Shown one piece after another: positions 5,910-61,488 of a stretch of 64,000 bases of DNA. The notes below the pieces were generated by a model. The model searched no databases. It was not told the origin of the DNA and was given only the letters and a program-made list of their open reading frames with translations. Positions within the stretch are counted from its first letter, which is position 1. Each line of letters starts with the position of its first letter. The stretch is taken from positions 1 through 64,000 of the forward strand of contig JAIPJB010000004.1 of assembly GCA_021734395.1 (NCBI GenBank), written 5' to 3'. This stretch comes from Candidatus Altimarinota bacterium. Its GTDB lineage: Bacteria > Patescibacteriota > Gracilibacteria > UBA4473. A program made the position numbers and the translations under genes.

Positions 5910-6761
5910 TTATTCCTTTTCTGTCCACGCCTTTTTCCAGTTGATCCACCATTTGCGCTGAGGAGAATCTGGCAGGAGCTGTGCCAAAATTATGGTCATT
6001 TTCAATGCGAGCAATTTCAGTCCTCGGGGAAGAATTTTTATTTCTGGATGCAAACGTTCAAAAACCGCCGCATTTTTTCGAGCATTTTTTGTTGCCTCCA
6101 AAAAACCCTCTAAGGTCTGACGATGATCGTGTAGCACTTCGCACTCAGGATCGTAGTGCATCTGCATTCCCTTCTGAGCTAATCGATAGCCAAATTCGGT
6201 ATCCTCAAATCCCCATCCGGAAAATTCTTCTGAAAATCGCTCTGAGATAATAAAACTTCGCTTGAGTGAAATATTGGACGTATAAAAGTGCCACCAAGTC
6301 GGTCCTTTTTTGGCAATGGTCTCAAAATCAAATTGTCCGTGATTTTCAAGCCATTGATGAAAAGGGTCTGAAGCCAGTTCTTGAATCCAAGAAACTTTTC
6401 CCAGTAGGACTTCTTTCTGTGCTCGATGATGCGCATGAAAATCATATACCTGACGCAACCATTCTCGTGTGGGAATTGTATCGTCCCCCAAAAAAATAAT
6501 AATTTCTCCGGTCGAGCGATCAATTCCTAGATTCCGAGCCGCTGCCGCACCGCGTTTGGACGAACGGAAAATTTTGCACTGATCGGTTTCTACTTCGGAC
6601 TGAAACTTCAGAGTTCCTGAATTCGAATCCTGAGAACCAGTATTGAAAACCACAATGACCTCTGGTCGAATTTCTTCATACTTTTCGCATTGCTCAATTC
6701 CGTCCAACACTTTTTCGAGTGTCGGACGTCCAATCGTGGGAATAATGATGGAGAGTTTCAT
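5910..6761 (-). CDS. family 2 glycosyltransferase
   Basis: 283 aa, GT-A fold. The N-terminus MKLSIIIPTIGRPTLEKVL and the NTGSQDSN loop match GT2 nucleotide-sugar binding. KRGAAAARNLGIDRSTGEII followed by FLGDD gives the metal-binding Asp pair, and FSGWGFEDTEFGYRLA is the acceptor-side ED motif of galactosyltransferase-like GT2 enzymes. No membrane span is evident, so it is probably cytoplasmic or peripheral and acts on a lipid- or peptide-linked glycan. The start codon overlaps the stop of the transposase gene (TTATGA), indicating translational coupling. The substrate cannot be told from sequence. Confidence 0.85.
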   Translation of the reverse strand: MKLSIIIPTIGRPTLEKVLDGIEQCEKYEEIRPEVIVVFNTGSQDSNSGTLKFQSEVETDQCKIFRSSKRGAAAARNLGIDRSTGEIIIFLGDDTIPTREWLRQVYDFHAHHRAQKEVLLGKVSWIQELASDPFHQWLENHGQFDFETIAKKGPTWWHFYTSNISLKRSFIISERFSEEFSGWGFEDTEFGYRLAQKGMQMHYDPECEVLHDHRQTLEGFLEATKNARKNAAVFERLHPEIKILPRGLKLLALKMTIILAQLLPDSPQRKWWINWKKAWTEKE

Positions 6762-7309
6762 AAAAAATATTTTGGATTCTCTGTGTCATCTTCCCATTTT
6801 TCCGCATTAAAGTGAATATATTTTTGAATTTTCTCAAGGGATTCGGTGCTTCGAATAATATGTTCATAAAATCGGGATTGCCATTGAAAATGAAGGTCTG
6901 GGAATTTCTTATTTATTTCACGTGTGCAAATAGATTTAAATGATCGAATAATCACCGATAATGAAGCTGGCTTGAGATAATAAAATGTATTTGATTTTCT
7001 TGTAGAGACGCAGCAATGCTGCGTCTCTACCTTTTTATTGATAACAATAATTCCATGCAGATGATTGGGCATGATAATAAATTCATCTAATTCTGTACTC
7101 ACAAAATGATTTGGGGTCGCCTCCCAAAATTTCTGAACCATACGCCCTATTTCATTTAATTCACATATTCCATTCTTAATTTTTCCGAAAACGCACGCGT
7201 GATTTTTTACACAAATCGTTACAAAATACCATCCTTCCTCTGAATAATCCCATTCCTTCAACCGCAGAGAAGAAATACGAAACGTATTCCTGAATTTCTC
7301 GTCTTCCAT
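6758..7309 (-). CDS. REP-associated tyrosine transposase (HUH, Y1 type)
   Basis: 183 aa, close to the normal length of RAYT proteins. The N-terminus RISSLRLKEWDYSEEGWYFV and ITICVKN-type strand are typical, the HUH pair is H83 and H85 in MPNHLHGI, and the catalytic tyrosine is most likely Y148 in QWQSRFYEHII, followed by YIHFN. RAYTs cut single-stranded DNA at REP hairpins and are usually single-copy housekeeping-like genes. The ATG touches the leuS stop (TAAATG) and the stop overlaps the glycosyltransferase start, so the gene is embedded in an operon rather than in its own insertion element. Residues 94-103 are encoded by a perfect palindrome. Confidence 0.9.
   Translation of the reverse strand: MEDEKFRNTFRISSLRLKEWDYSEEGWYFVTICVKNHACVFGKIKNGICELNEIGRMVQKFWEATPNHFVSTELDEFIIMPNHLHGIIVINKKVETQHCCVSTRKSNTFYYLKPASLSVIIRSFKSICTREINKKFPDLHFQWQSRFYEHIIRSTESLEKIQKYIHFNAEKWEDDTENPKYFL
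7002..7030. repeat. perfect 29-bp palindrome inside the transposase gene
   Basis: Fourteen-base arms (GTAGAGACGCAGCA / TGCTGCGTCTCTAC) around one base. It is translated in frame as VETQHCCVST between the HUH and Tyr motifs, i.e. a REP-like element that the reading frame tolerates. Confidence 0.9.
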
Positions 7310-10222
7310 TTATTTGACCACAAACCCCACAATCTTGCCGGGCACGAAAATTTCTTTTTTGATCTCCCCTTCCTTCAGGTATTTCGAAACTTTCTCCAAC
7401 TTCTTGGCCTCGGACAAAACCTCTTCTTTGCTCGCGTCTTTGGAAATCTGAAAATCTCCCCGCACCTTTCCATTGACCTGTACCGCATAGGTGACCTCTT
7501 CATCAATGAGAAACTGAGGATCGTATTCGGGCCAGGGTTCGTAGGCCAAAGTTTTAGCCTCCCCCAAAACCTCCTGCCAAATTTCCTCCGCCATATGCGG
7601 CGCAAAAGGAGAGAGTAATAAAGTGAATATTCGTAAGGCCGAACGGGAAATCGCTTTTTGATCGGACAATTCGTTGAGCAAAATCATTAACTGAGAAACT
7701 GCCGTATTAAACTTAAATTCATTCACATCATCACCAATTTTCTTGATACTCTTGTGGATTAGTTGAACACATTTTTTGTTCAAGTTTTCTTCGGTTATTG
7801 GTTTTCCACAAAGTTTCCACACCCGATCCAAAAATCGCTTTACGCCCGCCAATGCACCACTATCCCAGGCAATCGCCTGATCAAAAGGTCCCATAAACAT
7901 TTCGTAGACCCGTAGGACATCGGCTCCATATTCACGAATAATGTCGTCGGGATTGATGACATTCCCGAATGATTTGGACATCTTGCGTCCATCCTCAGCG
8001 AGGATCATCCCGTGAGAAATTCTTTTGGCGTAGGGCTCTGACGTAGGAACATAACCACAATCGTAGAGAAATTTATGCCAAAATCGTGAGTAAAGTAAAT
8101 GCAGTGTCGTATGCTCCATACCACCGTTGTACAAATCTACCGGTGTCCAGTAGTCCAGTTTTTTTCGATCGGCAAAAACCTGATCGTTGTGCGGATCGAT
8201 ATAGCGCAGGAAATACCACGAACTCCCCGCCCAGTTGGGCATGGTGTCAGTCTCCCTCTCCGCATCTCCACCACATTTGGGACACTGAGTCTTCACCCAA
8301 TCTTTCGCTCGGGCTAGAGGCGATTCCCCTGAATCGGTCGGCTGGTACTCTTTGACTGGGGGTAATTCTAATGGAAGTTCGCTTTCGGGGAGTGACACCG
8401 TGCCGCATTTAGAGCAATGAACCACCGGAATCGGTTCTCCCCAATATCTCTGGCGAGAAAAAACCCAGTCACGAAGTTTGTAATTCACTTGGCGTTTTCC
8501 GATCCCCTCTGCCTCCAGATGCTGAATCATTTTTTCTTTTGCTATTTCTGTCGACAATCCATTCAAAAAACTTGAATTAATAGATATACCACCTCCAATA
8601 TAAAATTTATGACCTGTTTTATTTAAAAGTTTTTTATTTTCCTGAGAAGGTTCAACCACTTCCCGAATCGGCAGATCAAATTTCTTTGCAAATTCATAAT
8701 CCCGCTCATCATGCGCCGGCACGCACATGATCGCTCCCGTGCCGTAGCCCATCATTACATAATCCGCAATCCAGACGGGTATTTTTTCTTTTGTGGCGGG
8801 ATTGAGAGCATACGCTCCGGTAAAAACGCCGGTCTTTTCTTTTGCTTCCTGACGGGCTAAATCCGACTCTGTCGCCACTTTTTTCCGGTATTTTTCGACG
8901 GCTTCTTTTTGCTCGCTGGTCGTAATCTGGGAAACAAGTGGATGCTCCGGAGCCAAGACGAAGTACGTCGCTCCAAAAAGCGTATCCGGACGGGTTGTGA
9001 AAACTGTTACTTTTTCCCAGTCAAAAAAAACTCTTTCTTCTGCTTCGTTTCTTTTTTTTGGATTTTGGCGTACATATTCCAGAGTTTTTTCTAAATCGCT
9101 TGCTGATTTTATCGGTTCAAAATTATATCCGTCTCGCCACAATTTTTTATATGTATAACCCCTTTCCCTACGCTTTTTTTCTACCCCGATATCGGCGGGT
9201 TTAAACCCGCCATTATCTTTGAGAGTAGCATCTTCTTTCAGAAATTTTGAAGAGCTTCCTTTTATAACTTGCATCAATTTCTCCATATCTCTTTCTAATG
9301 GATCGGCAACAACTAAATGAATGTGATCACTCATCACCGCTCCCACGGCGATATAAAAATTATGTTTTCTTGCAATATCCCGAAATATTTTTTGCAAAGA
9401 AAGAGCGCATTCTTCATTTAAAGAAACATTTTTTTCTGTATTAAAAGTCAGCAAATAAAGAGCCGTGGTTTCTTTTTTTTCTCCTAAATTAAAATATTCT
9501 TTCCCTCTCAAAATATCCATTTCAAAATCAATTTCAGCTCCGTGACTTTTCCCAATCCAATTAATCTGCTGCGATTGAATTCGATCCAAAAAATCTACCG
9601 TCTCCAGATCATCAATCAGCCGATCAGCATATTTGGTAATCGCCAGCATCCATTGTTCTTTTTCTCGTTTTTCTACTTCACCTCCACACCGTTCGCACAC
9701 GCCATTGACGACTTCTTCATTGGCCAGACCGATTTTACAGCTCAGACACCAATTGATCGGCATCTTCTTTTTATAGGCCAACCCTTTCTCCAAAAGCTTC
9801 AAAAAGATCCACTGTGTCCATTTGTAGTACTGAGGATCCGTCGTATCGACCTCCCGATCCCAATCATAGGACAAGCCCAGCTCCTGCAGTTGCCGGCGAA
9901 ACGTCTGAATATTTTCATCCGTGGCCTTTCGCGGATGAATACCGGTTTTAAGTGCGTAGTTTTCGGTGGGCAGACCAAATGCATCCCAGCCAATCGGATA
10001 CAAAACATTGTAGCCTTCCATCCTTTTCTTTCGAGATACTGCGTCCAGTGCCGCATACGAACGCACATGACCGACATGAAGACCCGCTCCCGAAGGATAG
10101 GGAAACTCCACCAGTGTGTACCACTTCTTTTTTTCGCTGAAATCCTGTGCGGCAAAAATTTTTTCCTTCACCCAAAATTCTTGCCATTTCTTCTCGATCT
10201 TTATGTGATCGTAGTCTTTCAT
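7310..10222 (-). CDS. leuS: leucyl-tRNA synthetase with internal HUH-transposase domain
   Basis: 970 aa from the ATG at 10222, which fits the family start (MKDYDHIKIEKKWQEFW); an upstream ATG at 10291 would add 23 unrelated residues. Class I motifs: HVGH at about 49-52 and KMSKS at about 747-751. The zinc-type Cys pairs (CLSC, CERC, CSKC, CPKC) are present, as are the CP1 editing signatures TTRPDTLFGATY (about 409) and GTGAIMCVPAHDERD. Between GAEIDFEMD and VTVFTTRPD, where ordinary LeuRS has about 10 residues, there are about 165 extra residues of HUH-transposase type (see separate entry). No stop or frameshift interrupts the frame, so a full-length enzyme is expected. A TAGAAT box ends 8 nt before the ATG, suggesting a leaderless message. 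It heads a five-gene operon. Confidence 0.95.
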   Translation of the reverse strand: MKDYDHIKIEKKWQEFWVKEKIFAAQDFSEKKKWYTLVEFPYPSGAGLHVGHVRSYAALDAVSRKKRMEGYNVLYPIGWDAFGLPTENYALKTGIHPRKATDENIQTFRRQLQELGLSYDWDREVDTTDPQYYKWTQWIFLKLLEKGLAYKKKMPINWCLSCKIGLANEEVVNGVCERCGGEVEKREKEQWMLAITKYADRLIDDLETVDFLDRIQSQQINWIGKSHGAEIDFEMDILRGKEYFNLGEKKETTALYLLTFNTEKNVSLNEECALSLQKIFRDIARKHNFYIAVGAVMSDHIHLVVADPLERDMEKLMQVIKGSSSKFLKEDATLKDNGGFKPADIGVEKKRRERGYTYKKLWRDGYNFEPIKSASDLEKTLEYVRQNPKKRNEAEERVFFDWEKVTVFTTRPDTLFGATYFVLAPEHPLVSQITTSEQKEAVEKYRKKVATESDLARQEAKEKTGVFTGAYALNPATKEKIPVWIADYVMMGYGTGAIMCVPAHDERDYEFAKKFDLPIREVVEPSQENKKLLNKTGHKFYIGGGISINSSFLNGLSTEIAKEKMIQHLEAEGIGKRQVNYKLRDWVFSRQRYWGEPIPVVHCSKCGTVSLPESELPLELPPVKEYQPTDSGESPLARAKDWVKTQCPKCGGDAERETDTMPNWAGSSWYFLRYIDPHNDQVFADRKKLDYWTPVDLYNGGMEHTTLHLLYSRFWHKFLYDCGYVPTSEPYAKRISHGMILAEDGRKMSKSFGNVINPDDIIREYGADVLRVYEMFMGPFDQAIAWDSGALAGVKRFLDRVWKLCGKPITEENLNKKCVQLIHKSIKKIGDDVNEFKFNTAVSQLMILLNELSDQKAISRSALRIFTLLLSPFAPHMAEEIWQEVLGEAKTLAYEPWPEYDPQFLIDEEVTYAVQVNGKVRGDFQISKDASKEEVLSEAKKLEKVSKYLKEGEIKKEIFVPGKIVGFVVK
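9017..9514 (-). mobile_element. in-frame HUH (Y1/RAYT-like) domain inserted in LeuRS
   Basis: Residues about 237-402 of LeuRS. The segment reads TTALYLLTFNTEKN (first strand of Y1 transposases), then AVGAVMSDHIHLVV with the HUH pair at H300 and H302, then LMQVIKGSSSKFLK, then KLWRDGYNFEPI with candidate nucleophile Y366, then LEYVRQNPKKR, the usual RAYT tail (YI-NP-K). Both catalytic motifs are thus retained. It is shorter and more divergent than the stand-alone transposase next door and is not a copy of it. Boundaries are estimated from where LeuRS similarity stops and resumes. Confidence 0.85.
9194..9211. repeat. perfect 18-bp palindrome inside the LeuRS insert
   Basis: GGCGGGTTT / AAACCCGCC, encoding GGFKPA between the HUH and Tyr motifs. 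This is the same relative place as the palindrome in the neighbouring transposase, but with a different sequence. Confidence 0.85.
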
Positions 10223-10371
10223 CGAAGGAGATTCTAATCCCAGACCGAGAAAAAGCAAACCCCCTCGCCATGGATTTGAACTCAGTATCAATGCAATACA
10301 ATAAAACTTTTCTCAAACAGAAAAATACGCATTAACATTCTTCCCAAAGAGTTTGAATCCTCCAATTGAAT

Positions 10372-19263: not shown

Positions 19264-19357
19264 ATTCTCTCTTCGTTCGAAAACTCTCTCCTCATTTCAC
19301 TTAAATCACAGAGAGGACATTCTCTCTTCGTTCGAAAACTCTCTCCTCATTTCACTT
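19264..19357. repeat. 39-bp direct repeat
   Basis: Copies at 19264-19302 and 19319-19357 are identical over about 39 nt (TTCTCTCTTCGTTCGAAAAC core). The gene-free stretch 19154-19474 also holds a palindrome GGTTCGAGCGAACC near 19382-19395 and a small CTTGC-TTC-GCAAG hairpin. No gene is visible there. Confidence 0.8.
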
Positions 19358-19446
19358 CGTCATTTCATTCCTCGTTCAATGGGTTCGAGCGAACCTACGG
19401 TTCTCGCCCATTCTTGCTTCGCAAGAAATAAAAAAATCCAAGCGAC

Positions 19447-19474: not shown

Positions 19475-19561
19475 TGGTGCCGAAGAGAGGACTCGAACCT
19501 CCACGGGATTGCTCCCACTACGACCTGAACGTAGCGCGTCTACCAGTTCCGCCACTTCGGC
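19475..19561 (-). tRNA. tRNA-Leu(CAG)
   Basis: 87 nt with encoded CCA. Acceptor GCCGAAG/CTTCGGC, anticodon stem CTACG/CGTAG with loop TTCAGGT (anticodon CAG), long variable arm and T arm GAGGTTCGAGTCCTC. It reads leucine CUG. Confidence 0.97.
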
Positions 19562-40834: not shown

Positions 40835-40948
40835 CCGGAGGGATTCTCTTCCATTCTCCTTCCTCCGCTATGCGGAGTCAGTCCGAGGTCGAGGTATTTG
40901 CATCCTCCCCTTCGCTAAGCTCAGGGTCGGTGCAAATTATCGAACCCC
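40638..40948 (-). pseudogene. split 3' copies of tRNA-Arg
   Basis: Three copies of the T-arm/acceptor side of the adjacent tRNA-Arg, seen on the plus strand as GGAGGGATT or GAGGGATT at about 40638-40648, 40735-40745 and 40836-40845. In two of them the rest of the T loop (TCGAAC) reappears after an insert: 40678-40684 (insert about 30 nt) and 40940-40948 (insert about 94 nt, with a CTCCGC/GCGGAG hairpin). None could form a tRNA alone. Confidence 0.55.
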
Positions 40949-41009
40949 ATTTTGCTTCGCAAAATTTTGGGGTTCAAATCCCGTTCTTGTTAACAATGAA
41001 AAATAAAAA

Positions 41010-41041: not shown

Positions 41042-41118
41042 TGGTACAGGCGGAGGGATTCGAACCCCCGACACCCGGTTCCGAAGACCGGTGCTCTATC
41101 CAGCTGAGCTACGCCTGC
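41042..41118 (-). tRNA. tRNA-Arg(TCG)
   Basis: 77 nt with encoded CCA. Acceptor GCAGGCG/CGCCTGT, anticodon stem CCGGT/ACCGG with loop CTTCGGA (anticodon TCG), T arm GGGGGTTCGAATCCCTC. It reads CGA without needing adenosine deamination. Confidence 0.95.
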
Positions 41119-57690: not shown

Positions 57691-58500
57691 TCAGAGAGGG
57701 CTTTTAATATTTCTGAGATTCATATTTGTTACGTGTGTATATCGTTGCGTCGTGCTGATATGAGCATGTCCCAAAAGTTCTTGCACATATCGTACATCAA
57801 TTCCATCCTCCAACAAATGAGTCGCAAAACTATGACGCAGGGAATGAAATGTTGCGTTTTTTCTGATCTTTGAATTTTCAAAGGCCTTCTGGAAAATCTT
57901 TTGCGCTGATCTTTCTGTCAGCCCTCCTCCTCTCTCACTTTCAAAGATAAAATCTGATGCTTTTTTCCCGGCAATCAAAACTTTCATCTCGTCTATTAAT
58001 TTTTCAGAAAAAGGTGTAATTCTGTCTTTTTGCCCTTTTGCTCCTTTGAGATGAAGAAAAAAATTATCAAAATCAATATCTCCCACTTTCAAATGAACAA
58101 CTTCACTCACCCGCAAACCACTCCCATACGACAACAATATCAAAAATCTATGCTTTCTGTTTTTCATATTTGCGATCAGTTTTTGTATTTCCTGTTTGGA
58201 CAAAATAACCGGTAATTTCTGGGGAGTTTTTGCAAACCGAAAATTATTTTCTATTTTTTCCTTCAAGATTTCTCGGTGGAAAAAGAGAATCGCTTGGAGA
58301 TAAGAATTGAGGGAGGAAGAAGAAAATCCCTTTTTTTCTAAATCAAAAAGAAAATTTTTAATGGCTTCCACGGATTTGTAATCTGGCATCCCTTTTACAT
58401 ATGCAAAATATCGATGCAAGCACAAAAGGTACGATTTGACCGTCCTGGGACTATATTTTCGTATTCGAAGTTCTCGTTCCACTTGATCCAAATACTTCAT
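57691..58500 (-). CDS. tyrosine recombinase (XerCD/IntI-like)
   Basis: 269 aa. N-terminal SAM-like core-binding domain (RIRKYSPRTVKSYLLCLHRYF), catalytic domain with R130 (YGSGLRVSEV), K155 region (GAKGQKDR), H219-x-x-R222 (HSLRHSFATHLL), H245 (LLGHAHIST) and Y254 (RYTHV). The full R-K-H-R-H-Y set is present. Phrases such as FFHREIL and KLPVILSKQEI, and the SPL end, also resemble integron integrases, but the IntI-specific helix insert is missing. It stands next to a cassette-like region (58574-60279). Confidence 0.9.
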   Translation of the reverse strand: MKYLDQVERELRIRKYSPRTVKSYLLCLHRYFAYVKGMPDYKSVEAIKNFLFDLEKKGFSSSSLNSYLQAILFFHREILKEKIENNFRFAKTPQKLPVILSKQEIQKLIANMKNRKHRFLILLSYGSGLRVSEVVHLKVGDIDFDNFFLHLKGAKGQKDRITPFSEKLIDEMKVLIAGKKASDFIFESERGGGLTERSAQKIFQKAFENSKIRKNATFHSLRHSFATHLLEDGIDVRYVQELLGHAHISTTQRYTHVTNMNLRNIKSPL

Positions 58501-58573
58501 ATAAAAACACTACTAATTCTTCGTATAAAGTTCAAATTTATTTGATATATGTAAAGTTGGCAGATACTATAGA

Positions 58574-58642
58574 GTTATATGAAATACATGTTTTCCTTTT
58601 TGGCTTCGCCAAGCTCCTAAAAAGAATCCGATTTTGTTTTTC
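58574..58642 (+). repeat. left copy of an imperfect inverted repeat
   Basis: It begins GTTATATGAAATACATG and runs through TTTTCCTTTTTGGCTTCGCC to AAAAAGAATCCGATTTTG. Its inverted partner is at 60113-60186; each arm contains a small hairpin of different sequence (GGCTTCGCC here). Confidence 0.75.
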
Positions 58643-58706
58643 TTTTTTATGAGGGGAAATAAGGAGTTTTCTCCACTCCGTTCCGAAAACAATTTATAAT
58701 AAAAAT

Positions 58707-60056
58707 ATGGAAGATTACATTTGGATATTAGGCATAATTGGAATAATAATCATATGGACTATTATTTCATGGATCCGTGAAACGATTTCCAATTCTAAAA
58801 AATATCTAGAGTTAAAACCCAAATTAGATAACTTGGAGCGTGCTATTGCTGAACATGAATCTAAGATACAAAAAGACAAAGCGGACATTGAAGCAAATTC
58901 AAAAAAAAGACTAGACGATTATTCCCAGACGGTTAAAAGCCAAAAGGACGAGTTCGATTTAAGGAAAAAATTATGGAATGAAAAAATACAAAATGATAAA
59001 GAGGAAATCGATAAAATTGCCAAACAAAAATCCATGGGATTTCCTTGGTTGGCTGAAGCATATGCAGATTATTTTGCGCTAAAAGATGGAGAACTGGAAA
59101 AATACCTAAGAGAGAAAAAACATCCAGCATACACAGCAGCGGAAAATGTGAGAATGATTAAAGGTGAAAAAAAGCAACTACTTAAAGAAAACAAAATCGT
59201 CAGATACAAAATAAACTATTTTGAAAAATTATTTCCTTGGCTCTCTGAACTAATTGCTGATGATGAAGATGAATATATCCCAGTAAAAATCGGCGATGAC
59301 GAGAATGAAAACAACGAAGATAGGGTAAAGGATTTTCTAACTCCAGAAGAATACCAAAGCCTGCCAACCGTTGAGAGAAATCAAATGGCCTTAGACCGGT
59401 ACTTACGAAACAGAAACAAATCAAAGTGGGCAATCGGCAGAGACTATGAAATGTATGTAGGCCATTTATACGAAAAGGCCGGCTATGATATTGAATACAA
59501 AGGTATTCTGGATGGGTTCGAAGATCTCGGCAGAGATGTTATTGCCAAAAAAAGCGGGGAAGTTTGTATTATCCAATGTAAGAATTGGGCGCAATACAAA
59601 GTTATTCATGAAAAGCATATTTTCCAGCTATTTGGGACAACAATGGAATACTGGCTAAACAACTATCAATCAGTAAGAAATGAATGGAATTTATTTGCAC
59701 AAAATATAAGAAATGGCTCTCCCCAAAAAAGTTTTGAAGAATTTGCGAAATTTCTTAATGAAGAAAAACTTAAACCAATCTTTTTTACTTCCACAAGTTT
59801 ATCTGACAAAGCTAAAGAAATGGCCAACGCATTGAGTGTTGAGATTAGAGAAAATGAAGCACCAGGTGAATTTCCAAGAATAAAATGCAACATCAACAGC
59901 GACGAATTTGGTCGGCAAACAAAAATCTATCATCTGCCAATGGATCAACAATACGACCGAACAATAATCGGAAATCGTTCAGGCGAATTTTATGCTTTTA
60001 CAGTTAAAGAAGCAGAGGATGCAGGTTTTAGACGAGCATTCAAGCATAGATATTAG
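58707..60056 (+). CDS. membrane-anchored Mrr-type restriction endonuclease-like protein
   Basis: 449 aa. N-terminal TM helix (about 4-24), a coiled coil (30-100), a helical middle region, and an Mrr-like PD-(D/E)xK domain (240-330): YEMYVGHLYEKAGYDIEYKG, D277 in DLGRDVIAKKS and Q290-C-K292. The C-terminus KIYHLPMDQQYDRTIIGNRSG...AEDAGFRRA resembles the small metal-binding tail found on various nucleases, but without its cysteines. Restriction or another anti-invader role is likely. A TATAAT box lies 6 nt before the ATG. Base use is more AT-rich than the neighbours, and inverted repeats flank it, both signs of transfer. Confidence 0.8.
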   Translation: MEDYIWILGIIGIIIIWTIISWIRETISNSKKYLELKPKLDNLERAIAEHESKIQKDKADIEANSKKRLDDYSQTVKSQKDEFDLRKKLWNEKIQNDKEEIDKIAKQKSMGFPWLAEAYADYFALKDGELEKYLREKKHPAYTAAENVRMIKGEKKQLLKENKIVRYKINYFEKLFPWLSELIADDEDEYIPVKIGDDENENNEDRVKDFLTPEEYQSLPTVERNQMALDRYLRNRNKSKWAIGRDYEMYVGHLYEKAGYDIEYKGILDGFEDLGRDVIAKKSGEVCIIQCKNWAQYKVIHEKHIFQLFGTTMEYWLNNYQSVRNEWNLFAQNIRNGSPQKSFEEFAKFLNEEKLKPIFFTSTSLSDKAKEMANALSVEIRENEAPGEFPRIKCNINSDEFGRQTKIYHLPMDQQYDRTIIGNRSGEFYAFTVKEAEDAGFRRAFKHRY

Positions 60057-60112
60057 GAGTTTGGGGAGGGGCAATTCACCCCTTTTGTTCCCCTCTTGAC
60101 CCTCCCCAAACG

Positions 60113-60186
60113 GAAAACCAAATCAGATTCTTTTTAAGAGCGATTTGCTATCGCAAATCAAAAGGAAAACATGTACATCATATAAC
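60113..60186 (-). repeat. right copy of the inverted repeat
   Basis: The reverse complement starts GTTATATGATGTACATG and ends AAAAAGAATCTGATTTGG, matching the left copy at about 80% outside the central hairpin (GATTTGCGATAGCAAATC here). Its outer end runs into the attC-like structure. Confidence 0.75.
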
Positions 60187-60279
60187 ACGGCATATCTGGT
60201 TACGGCTTTTATACAAAAGCCTCCACCCATATTTGCCTCCGCTACGCTACGGCAAACATCAGATATGCCGAAACGTTAG
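60183..60279. other. attC-like folded site
   Basis: AAC near one end and CGTTAGC at the other surround a 11-bp stem CGGCATATCTG / CAGATATGCCG. Inside are GGCTTTT/AAAAGCC and TTTGCC/GGCAAA hairpins. Size (97 nt), the AAC...GTT ends and dyad symmetry recall integron attC sites, but the core sequences match the consensus only partly and the branched fold is not typical. Confidence 0.45.
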
Positions 60280-60290
60280 CTGAAATCCCC

Positions 60291-60551
60291 CTACTTATAC
60301 ACATCATGATTCCCCACTGTCAGAAGTGCGATTCGTTTCTTTGACTCGTATTCAAAAACAATCCGATATTCATAATTCACCGAAAAACTATAAAAATCCT
60401 TCAGCTTGCCATGCAATTTGTGAACTTTGAGAAAAGAATGCTTGGGATCGGTACGAAAAAGTTCTATTTTTTCTTTCATTTCTTGCCGCAAAGCTTTTGG
60501 GAATTTTTTGTACTGACGCACAAAAGTAGGCTTGTATACAATTTCAAGCAT
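60291..60551 (-). CDS. RelE/YafQ-type toxin
   Basis: 86 aa. MLEIVYKPTFVRQYKKFPKALRQEMKEKIELF, then KVHKLHGKLKDFYSFSVNYEYRIVFEYE and a final VGNHDVYK carrying the His/Tyr of the YafQ/RelE RNase fold. It would cleave mRNA on the ribosome when freed from the antitoxin. The upstream antitoxin gene ends 2 nt before. Confidence 0.88.
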   Translation of the reverse strand: MLEIVYKPTFVRQYKKFPKALRQEMKEKIELFRTDPKHSFLKVHKLHGKLKDFYSFSVNYEYRIVFEYESKKRIALLTVGNHDVYK

Positions 60552-60553
60552 GT

Positions 60554-60760
60554 TTAGAGTTTACAAGCCAGTGTGTCTAAATCTCCCTTGAGCGAAGGTT
60601 CTGATTGTGCCTCAAGCACCATCTGAACTGCCTGATCTTCCAAATACTGTTGAATTGCCATACGAGCCACAGCCGCTTCATTGGAAGCTTTCCCTTGTTT
60701 AACAAGAGTTTTTATGTGCGCTCGCAAATCATCCGAAAGTGGTACGGAAAGTGTACTCAT
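60554..60760 (-). CDS. antitoxin of the RelE-type toxin
   Basis: 68 aa. LSVPLSDDLRAHIKTLVKQGKASNEAAVARMAIQQYLE is a ribbon-helix-helix type DNA-binding domain; the C-terminal 25 residues would wrap the toxin. First gene of the pair, with a palindromic operator just upstream. Confidence 0.85.
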   Translation of the reverse strand: MSTLSVPLSDDLRAHIKTLVKQGKASNEAAVARMAIQQYLEDQAVQMVLEAQSEPSLKGDLDTLACKL

Positions 60761-60983: not shown

Positions 60984-61059
60984 GCGCGTGTCGTATAACG
61001 GCTTATTACCCCAGCCTTCCAAGCTGGTGATACGGGTTCGATTCCCGTCACGCGCTCCA
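60984..61059 (+). tRNA. tRNA-Gly(TCC)
   Basis: 76 nt. Acceptor GCGCGTG/CACGCGC, anticodon stem CCAGC/GCTGG with loop CTTCCAA (anticodon TCC), T arm ACGGGTTCGATTCCCGT, discriminator T and encoded CCA. Confidence 0.96.
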
Positions 61060-61140
61060 AAGAAAGATGGATGTACCTAAAGGGTATAGCCACCTTTCTT
61101 TATTGTCTGATAAGAACCCGTATTTGGGCGAAGCCAAAAT

Positions 61141-61246
61141 GGGTTCGATACGAGGAGTAAAGCAAATGGGAGCTTGCTCACAATTTGCGTACGACGACGT
61201 CACAAAGGTCGTTTTAACGACCGAAGTATTCCCGTCACGCGCTCCA
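61141..61246 (+). pseudogene. tRNA-Gly T-arm copy split by an insert
   Basis: GGGTTCGAT (61141-61149) and ATTCCCGTCACGCGCTCCA (61228-61246) are the two sides of the tRNA-Gly T arm plus acceptor. A 78-nt insert divides the T loop and contains a perfect palindrome GGTCGTT-TT-AACGACC (61207-61222). Confidence 0.7.
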
Positions 61247-61316
61247 GCGCGAAAATCGCCCTGAGTCCTTGTGACTGTGGGCGGTTTTTGCATGTGTGTA
61301 CGGGAAGCGAACCAGA

Positions 61317-61440
61317 GGGTTCGCTTTTTGACCATGAGTAAAGTTCCGAAGAAACAAAGCGAATCGGGCAAAAAGTTCTCGACTTCGGACCCCGAGCTTG
61401 TCGAGGGGGAGAATGAGAGAGTTTCCCGTCACGCGCTCTA
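61317..61440 (+). pseudogene. second split tRNA-Gly T-arm copy
   Basis: GGGTTCG (61317-61323) and TTTCCCGTCACGCGCTCTA (61422-61440) again flank a break at the same T-loop position, with a 98-nt insert carrying a CCCCGAG...TCGAGGGG element of the CCCTGAGC/GCGAAGGG repeat type. The gap 61060-61488 has no protein gene. Confidence 0.65.
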
Positions 61441-61488
61441 GTAAAAATTAAAATGCTCCTTATGGTTTTTTTATAAGCAATTAAAAAA

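Follow-up and report, generated by a model that had tools for sequence, protein, structure and literature searches.

The locus behind the tRNA-Gly(TCC) gene raises the question of why an intact tRNA gene should be followed by two further copies of its own 3' end, each with a second piece of the T arm lying ahead of it. In the window, by which we mean the whole stretch of 64,000 nucleotides that was analysed, this gene occupies 60984-61059 on the + strand (ARAGORN; Rfam tRNA match of 61.4 bits), and TTCCCGTCACGCGCT is found on the + strand at 61042, 61229 and 61423 and nowhere else, with a chance expectation of 0.06 when up to 2 mismatches are allowed. The three copies of the tRNA 3' end are 19-nt repeats spaced by 187 and 194, the two downstream copies lying at 61228-61246 and 61422-61440; the third reads TTTCCCGTCACGCGCTCTA (89%). 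The motif GGGTTCG is present at 61141-61147 and 61317-61323, about 80 and 98 nt ahead of the respective copies. A sequence-only reading of this DNA had described a tRNA-Gly followed by two cut copies of its T arm, and we confirm this arrangement; its insert lengths were 78 and 98 nt, of which the second agrees with ours and the first is measured here as about 80. Both GGGTTCG motifs are 3' arms of local hairpins (GAACCC..GGGTTC at 61114-61146, and GCGAACC-AGA-GGGTTCGC), and viewed at this locus alone they could therefore pass for ordinary palindromes.

Direct repeats divide the DNA behind the tRNA-Gly, which is the target gene, into two units, both on the + strand. Unit 1 (61060-61246, 187 bp) consists of a terminator-like hairpin (61060-61102), a hairpin designated P2 (61114-61147, from sequence and folds), in which GAACCC is followed by GGGTTCG, the left half of the T arm, then a subfamily-A insert, and finally a perfect 18-nt copy of tRNA-Gly nt 59-76 at 61229-61246, recognized both as a repeat and in the occurrence search. 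Unit 2 (61247-61440, 194 bp) has a terminator-like hairpin, hairpins P1-P4 with a subfamily-C insert, and a third copy of nt 59-76 (61423-61440) with TCTA for TCCA. The inserts carry different palindromes, as had been proposed. The left strand of P1 in unit 2 is an antisense T arm, ACGGGAA (61300-61306), assigned from sequence and family-wide complementarity and complementary to TTCCCGT of the copy at 61423; unit 1, like some other units, has no clear P1. A covariance model, R1, matches unit 2 at 61303-61426 (+) with 33.4 bits (E 1.9e-6). No inverted repeat joins the unit ends at this locus. The insert type of unit 1 recurs behind tRNA-Glu and tRNA-Gln in the same genome (G000), and a relative of unit 2, 79-81% identical, stands behind tRNA-Gly(GCC) of that genome. 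The window also holds a related unit at 40841-40981 (-), behind tRNA-Arg(TCG) at 41042-41118 (-), with an R1 score of 82.1 bits, and a weak, decayed unit at 19279-19409 (-), behind tRNA-Leu(CAG) at 19475-19561 (-), with 19.6 bits.

The search for other T-loop splits that the sequence-only reading had called for was productive. Copies of tRNA 3' ends were counted if they had no more than 3 mismatches in 17 and lay within 700 nt downstream of a tRNA gene; an identical scan upstream, used as a control, gave 0 copies in every genome surveyed. Downstream copies are present at 13 of the 42 tRNAs of G000, at 10 of 39 in the congener G001, at 9 of 19 in G018 (6/16 without three loci that had been chosen for their units), at 2 of 14 in G003, at 1 of 59 in four further relatives within the family (pooled), and at none of the 33 tRNAs in two genomes of other families. 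In G000 there are between one and three units behind Gly (two genes), Lys, Glu (two), Gln (two), Thr, Tyr, Asn, Met and other tRNAs, and decayed units behind Arg, Trp and Leu. Insert modules are common to unrelated tRNAs with different flanks (Gly/Lys, Gln/Glu and Thr/Met/Glu); the final 52 bp of unit 2, for example, occur unchanged twice in tandem behind tRNA-Lys(TTT), with the Lys 3' end after each. The tandem arrays at Lys and Pro hold near-identical copies, and growth of these arrays by recombination is therefore likely in part.

When R1 was applied to 41 genomes, units were found only inside the family to which G000 belongs, where in relatives they also stand behind tmRNA; five genomes with at least four matches (G000, G001, G003, G016 and G018) are referred to as unit-rich. 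Rightward, 44 of 67 units end in a tRNA 3' tail, compared with 4 of 335 random positions, and the orientation of one unit, at tRNA-Asp of G001, is reversed. In G027, a genome of another family, a stretch resembling a unit (locus L044) contains a perfect Ser 3' copy, which suggests that R1 misses more distant members. A scan of the genome collection with a 21-base signature recovered one family member (G004) and two unrelated, probably chance, matches, and viral contigs scanned with two unit signatures gave none. TGA is a sense codon in some genomes of the same class, as would suit the Gracilibacteria.

That units are gained at particular sites is evident from comparison of orthologous tRNAs. 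At tRNA-Glu(TTC) of G000, two units totalling 374 bp lie between the CCA and the flank, whereas in G001 the same flank begins right at the tRNA end (82% identity over 142 bp); this is the only clean filled/empty pair with a long aligned flank that was found. At the window's tRNA-Gly, the DNA past the third copy (GTAAAAATTAAAATG...; 61441-61488, +) matches 48 nt of terminator directly behind tRNA-Gly(TCC) of G003 and is probably the native terminator or flank, displaced by the units; the alignment score is 60, compared with 48 for the best of 194 other tRNA flanks and a shuffled maximum of 43. G003, however, has no hydrolase gene beside this tRNA. Where the order tRNA-Gly/hydrolase is conserved, G000, G001 and G018 differ in the units they carry. 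Several orthologous tRNAs have no unit. The empty site at tRNA-Glu and the displaced terminator at tRNA-Gly run counter to inherited spacer DNA with no site preference, which the earlier reading had named as the finding that would speak against it.

The units, about 120-195 bp in length, share a common anatomy. Standard units contain no genes. Each begins directly behind the CCA, as a rule with a terminator-like hairpin, followed by GGATnnGAACC-loop-GGTTCG, two hairpins, and then ATCC, the acceptor strand and CCA. Single-sequence folds agree across units: P1 (GGAT/ATCC), P2 (GAACC/GGTTC), and then P3, exemplified by ATTTGCACC-GA-...-GA-GGATGCAAAT, and P4 (CTC...GTCC/GGAC...GAG). Among 67 aligned units, 90.8% of the stem cells are paired, 25 of the 26 stem pairs show change on both sides, and double-changed cells number 210 versus 45 in shuffles; pairing falls to 42-56% if the partner is slid by one column. 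Because the alignment behind these stem figures was fitted to the model, pairing is favoured, although the bias expected would be toward G.T and not toward A.C. Unit stems contain 38 G.T and 39 A.C oppositions, whereas the acceptor and T stems of 233 tRNAs of the same genomes contain 137 and 8, respectively (P=1.5e-14 versus the units). Because G.T is no commoner than A.C, and RNA would tolerate G.U, the fold is under selection as DNA rather than as RNA, and its probable role is therefore that of a recombination site in folded single-stranded or cruciform DNA. A search of the window locus and 15 related loci against 4227 Rfam families at permissive thresholds returned tRNA matches only.

Across the unit family the split T arm proves genuine, and it is customized to the host tRNA. 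The strand left of P1 pairs with the host T stem beyond the constant GGAT at 120 of 264 positions; when units are reassigned among tRNAs the mean is 83 (sd 7.0), and none of 2000 shuffles is as high. Likewise, in 41 of 66 units the base before GGTTC agrees with the host T stem (shuffle mean 26.1, sd 3.3). Since host matches exceed those of the label shuffles (P<1/2000), both T-arm pieces, the antisense arm and the left half, are specific to the tRNA. Where the upstream and downstream copies differ, the antisense T arm is mixed in which of them it follows. Simple site-specific recombination does not explain such tailoring for each tRNA.

The T loop is interrupted between nt 58 and 59 family-wide. 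Twenty of the 34 perfect 3' copies are identical over exactly 18 nt and five over 19 nt, corresponding to nt 59-76, which bears out the shared T-loop breakpoint seen earlier in the two copies at tRNA-Gly; six extend over 23-43 nt, at least three of these being units of the GIY-YIG type described below. The contrast once drawn with att copies, on the ground that these are continuous, fails, for the 18-nt 3' copy is likewise uninterrupted and resembles an att copy. What goes beyond an att-like copy is the extra antisense/left-half T arm about 100 nt upstream of it. Separately, some orthologous tRNAs differ by a whole T stem while their acceptor stems are nearly unchanged, as with tRNA-Met of G000 and G001 (GGTGG/CCACC) versus G018 (ACAGG/CCTGT); tRNA-Arg and tRNA-Gln show T-stem differences in several genomes too, and the other type is retained in some downstream copies. 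Exchange of T arms through the elements is possible.

Other elements are also present at tRNA genes. Some units encode a small GIY-YIG protein, as at tRNA-Met in G000 and tRNA-Ile in G001 (L049 1577-2200; L101; L125), and six of the 13 GIY-YIG genes in G000 adjoin tRNAs (P=4e-7, simple binomial). The tRNA copies of these units reach past the T arm (for Ile, to the D loop), and in place of the anticodon arm they have a GC palindrome; a 170-bp unit at tRNA-Val of G001 shows the same pattern. In G016 and G015, elements of about 8 kb (L178 3712-11823; L180 8521-16574) separate tRNA-Arg or tRNA-Ser from an older unit; they carry a large serine recombinase gene reading into the tRNA, a phage-type replication protein (Phage_CRI; weak Rep_trans), and restriction-modification-like genes. 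A decayed tRNA 3' copy stands between the 8-kb element and the unit, and the units are therefore insertions separate from these elements; the right ends of the 8-kb elements give no support to their being parents of the units. At tRNA-Gln of G018, a 5-kb block (L177 5415-10567) encoding a TOTE helicase-primase and a Fic-like protein (named by eye) is flanked by two identical unit copies. A second conserved stretch, of about 120 bp (TGAAATGAGCTAATGGCACCTGATTCC...), occurs behind three tRNA-Ser genes (L080 and L081 in G000), with a similar stretch behind the tRNA-Gln unit of G001 (L123); this is perhaps a second gene-less element of tRNA 3' ends.

The explanation that we favour, and hold to be reasonably probable, is that the units are gene-less, DNA-structured elements of about 120-195 bp which target the 3' ends of tRNA and tmRNA genes, are moved in trans, and have inserted twice at tRNA-Gly. 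Each of the two successive insertions would have taken place exactly at the tRNA 3' end, restoring an intact tRNA, with a copy of nt 59-76 left at the element's distal end; because each insertion leaves both, insertions would pile up in tandem. The core would be branched DNA, in which P1 pairs the antisense T arm with the T-stem strand of the 3' copy and P2 pairs the same antisense arm with the left T-arm half, the modular hairpins P3 and P4 following. A trans-acting recombinase would recognize T-arm hairpins in folded or cruciform DNA and integrate the unit at nt 58/59; units would presumably also be excised, though neither circles nor other excised forms were observed, and arrays would grow by further insertion and by homologous recombination. 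As a speculation, the antisense T arm may be copied by template switching at the T-arm hairpin during replication. The narrower proposal, that a recombinase recognizes the T-arm hairpin common to all tRNA genes, inserts a DNA-structured cassette of some 190 bp at nt 58/59 while the DNA is folded, and by the same step copies the host T arm into it in both orientations, is tentative, and we would sooner bet against it than for it. If true, this would be mobile DNA whose sole content is its own folded recombination site, and all the tRNA and tmRNA genes of a genome would be open to one element as safe sites.

The leading candidate for the enzyme is a Xer/integron-integrase-like tyrosine recombinase encoded at 57691-58500 (-), 2.5 kb upstream of tRNA-Gly (PF00589 and PF13495), and the Y1/HUH RAYT proteins rank next. 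The tyrosine recombinase scores 207.9 bits against TIGR02249 (cut-off 265) and 212.8 against NF040815 (cut-off 220), below both cut-offs. Its orthologues within the family are confined to G000, G001, G003 and G018, four of the five unit-rich genomes (Fisher P about 0.001, computed by hand and ignoring phylogeny), and it is missing from unit-bearing G016 (76% complete); two genomes of other families that have it contain 0 copies in 33 tRNAs. No T-arm-like site was found in the 200 bp upstream of the window gene, and the G001 gene is located about 230 bp behind a tmRNA unit. Between the recombinase and tRNA-Gly (57691-60760), an Mrr-type nuclease (58707-60056) and a RelE/HigB-like toxin (60291-60551) form a small defence-like block.

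Y1_Tnp proteins are encoded in all five unit-rich genomes and also in relatives in which no units were detected (G006, G009 and G013). The window stretch to which HUH proteins had been assigned (6758-10222) contains a RAYT gene (6758-7309, -) and a Y1-like domain within a leucyl-tRNA synthetase, and no element adjoining the tRNA-Gly locus. This synthetase (7310-10291, -; 993 aa) adjoins the free-standing RAYT gene and has its Y1_Tnp match at aa 287-355 (E 1.2e-12), before the editing domain; comparable Y1 matches are found inside ORFs of 1063-1311 aa in G016 and G025. In Pfam searches, three of the five unit-rich genomes lack Cas1 (G000, G003, which is 99% complete, and G016), and unit-bearing G001 and G003 lack reverse transcriptase (PF00078); both are rejected as general agents by these absences. 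The large serine recombinase is also rejected as the agent, in view of separate insertions at shared tRNAs and of G018, a unit-rich genome (70% complete) with no PF07508 match.

Among the alternatives, the one that we take most seriously, though we think it unlikely, is that the units are ordinary att scars, left by larger tRNA-targeting integrative elements (with a serine or tyrosine integrase) that inserted repeatedly and lost their genes. Relatives do have large serine-recombinase elements with phage-like replication genes at tRNA-Arg and tRNA-Ser, and tRNA integrases leave 18-nt 3' copies and normally accrete in tandem. Leftovers of random deletion, however, would not share a covarying four-hairpin architecture of near-constant size behind a dozen tRNA species, nor would host-matched antisense T arms be expected of them; the extra decayed 3' copy between coexisting large elements and units again points to separate insertions, and the lack of a PF07508 match in G018 weighs against this origin as well. 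The proposal of the sequence-only reading, that HUH enzymes (Y1/RAYT) move hairpin inserts into exposed T loops on single-stranded DNA, seems to us distinctly improbable as it stands. Selection on DNA hairpins does fit enzymes that act on folded or single-stranded DNA, and the Y1 proteins of the unit-rich genomes and the RAYT gene of the window are in its favour, but Y1 proteins also occur in the genomes without detected units, and an 18-nt copy is left here whereas IS200/IS605-type transposition is not known to give a target duplication. That reading is thus upheld in part, namely for the breakpoint, the palindromes, the site preference and the DNA hairpins, with HUH enzymes kept as a candidate.

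Three further explanations are each given very little credence. Strong covariation, the four-way fold and the terminator-like hairpin ahead of each unit would suit a structured RNA (regulatory, tRNA-like or a ribozyme) expressed behind tRNA genes, but an RNA function is rejected by the G.T/A.C test, and the absence of an Rfam family, the one reversed unit and the orthologous tRNAs without a unit likewise stand against it. Replication slippage, duplicating spacer DNA along with the tRNA 3' end in the absence of any specific element, could account for the near-identical copies in the Lys and Pro arrays; it is scarcely credible for insert types that recur behind unrelated tRNAs with different flanks, a breakpoint fixed at nt 58/59 and a covarying structure. 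Reverse transcription stopping at modified A58 copies 18 nt, from the T loop to the CCA, and copying of the tRNA 3' end up to A58 would fit the length observed, as a casposon-like Cas1 insertion would fit the site. The casposase targets the tRNA 3' end, with duplications of 14-15 bp (PMC6614799), but the absence of Cas1 or reverse transcriptase from unit-bearing genomes and of an inverted repeat joining the unit ends makes this pair of mechanisms most improbable too.

If the favoured explanation of trans-mobilized, gene-less elements is correct, candidate-phylum bacteria would contain mobile elements of less than 200 bp that exploit a motif common to all tRNA genes; units have reached about a third of the tRNA genes in G000. 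They would show that DNA-level folding can be maintained in intergenic repeats outside integrons, would give a test bed for folded-DNA recombination, and would account for many tRNA 3' fragments in these genomes that might be taken for partial tRNA genes or phage scars. In the papers searched for candidate-phylum bacteria, which did not extend to preprints or to most subscription journals, no such element was found; because this coverage is partial, we regard as provisional the novelty of a gene-less unit below 200 bp with one DNA fold, many tRNA hosts as well as tmRNA, and host-matched T-arm pieces.

The 3' ends of tRNA genes are well-known integration sites, and the sub-sites known for tRNA-gene integrases include one with the crossover within or close to the T loop. 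As at the att sites of phage and ICE integrases and of tycheposons, the tRNA remains intact, its 3' end is duplicated downstream and elements accrete in tandem; unlike those elements, the units are of about 120-195 bp, code for nothing, occupy many tRNA species and tmRNA within a genome, share one DNA fold, and have an extra host-matched antisense/left T-arm half. With REP/RAYT and IS200/IS605 systems they have in common scattered non-coding DNA hairpins and genomes that encode Y1/HUH transposases, but they are strictly located at tRNA 3' ends, with a host-matched T arm and an 18-nt copy, and we know of no REPs with any of these three features. They are short, non-coding, multi-copy and presumably moved in trans, as are MITEs, but have no terminal inverted repeats, and their duplication is an 18-nt site-specific one rather than short and generic. 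Casposons also produce a direct duplication on insertion at a tRNA 3' end, of 14-15 bp (PMC6614799). The units differ from these in having neither terminal inverted repeats nor genes, in their 18-nt copy, and in the lack of Cas1 noted above for three unit-rich genomes. Compared with integrons, there is no attI array at the recombinase, there are no cassette genes, and an 18-nt target copy is left. The R' box of attC is GTTRRRY, which the T-arm motif of the units, GGTTCG, does not fit. They resemble attC nonetheless in being palindromic sites whose structure is conserved while the sequence varies, with selection at the level of DNA, and the tyrosine recombinase of the window scores against the integron-integrase model TIGR02249, below its cut-off.
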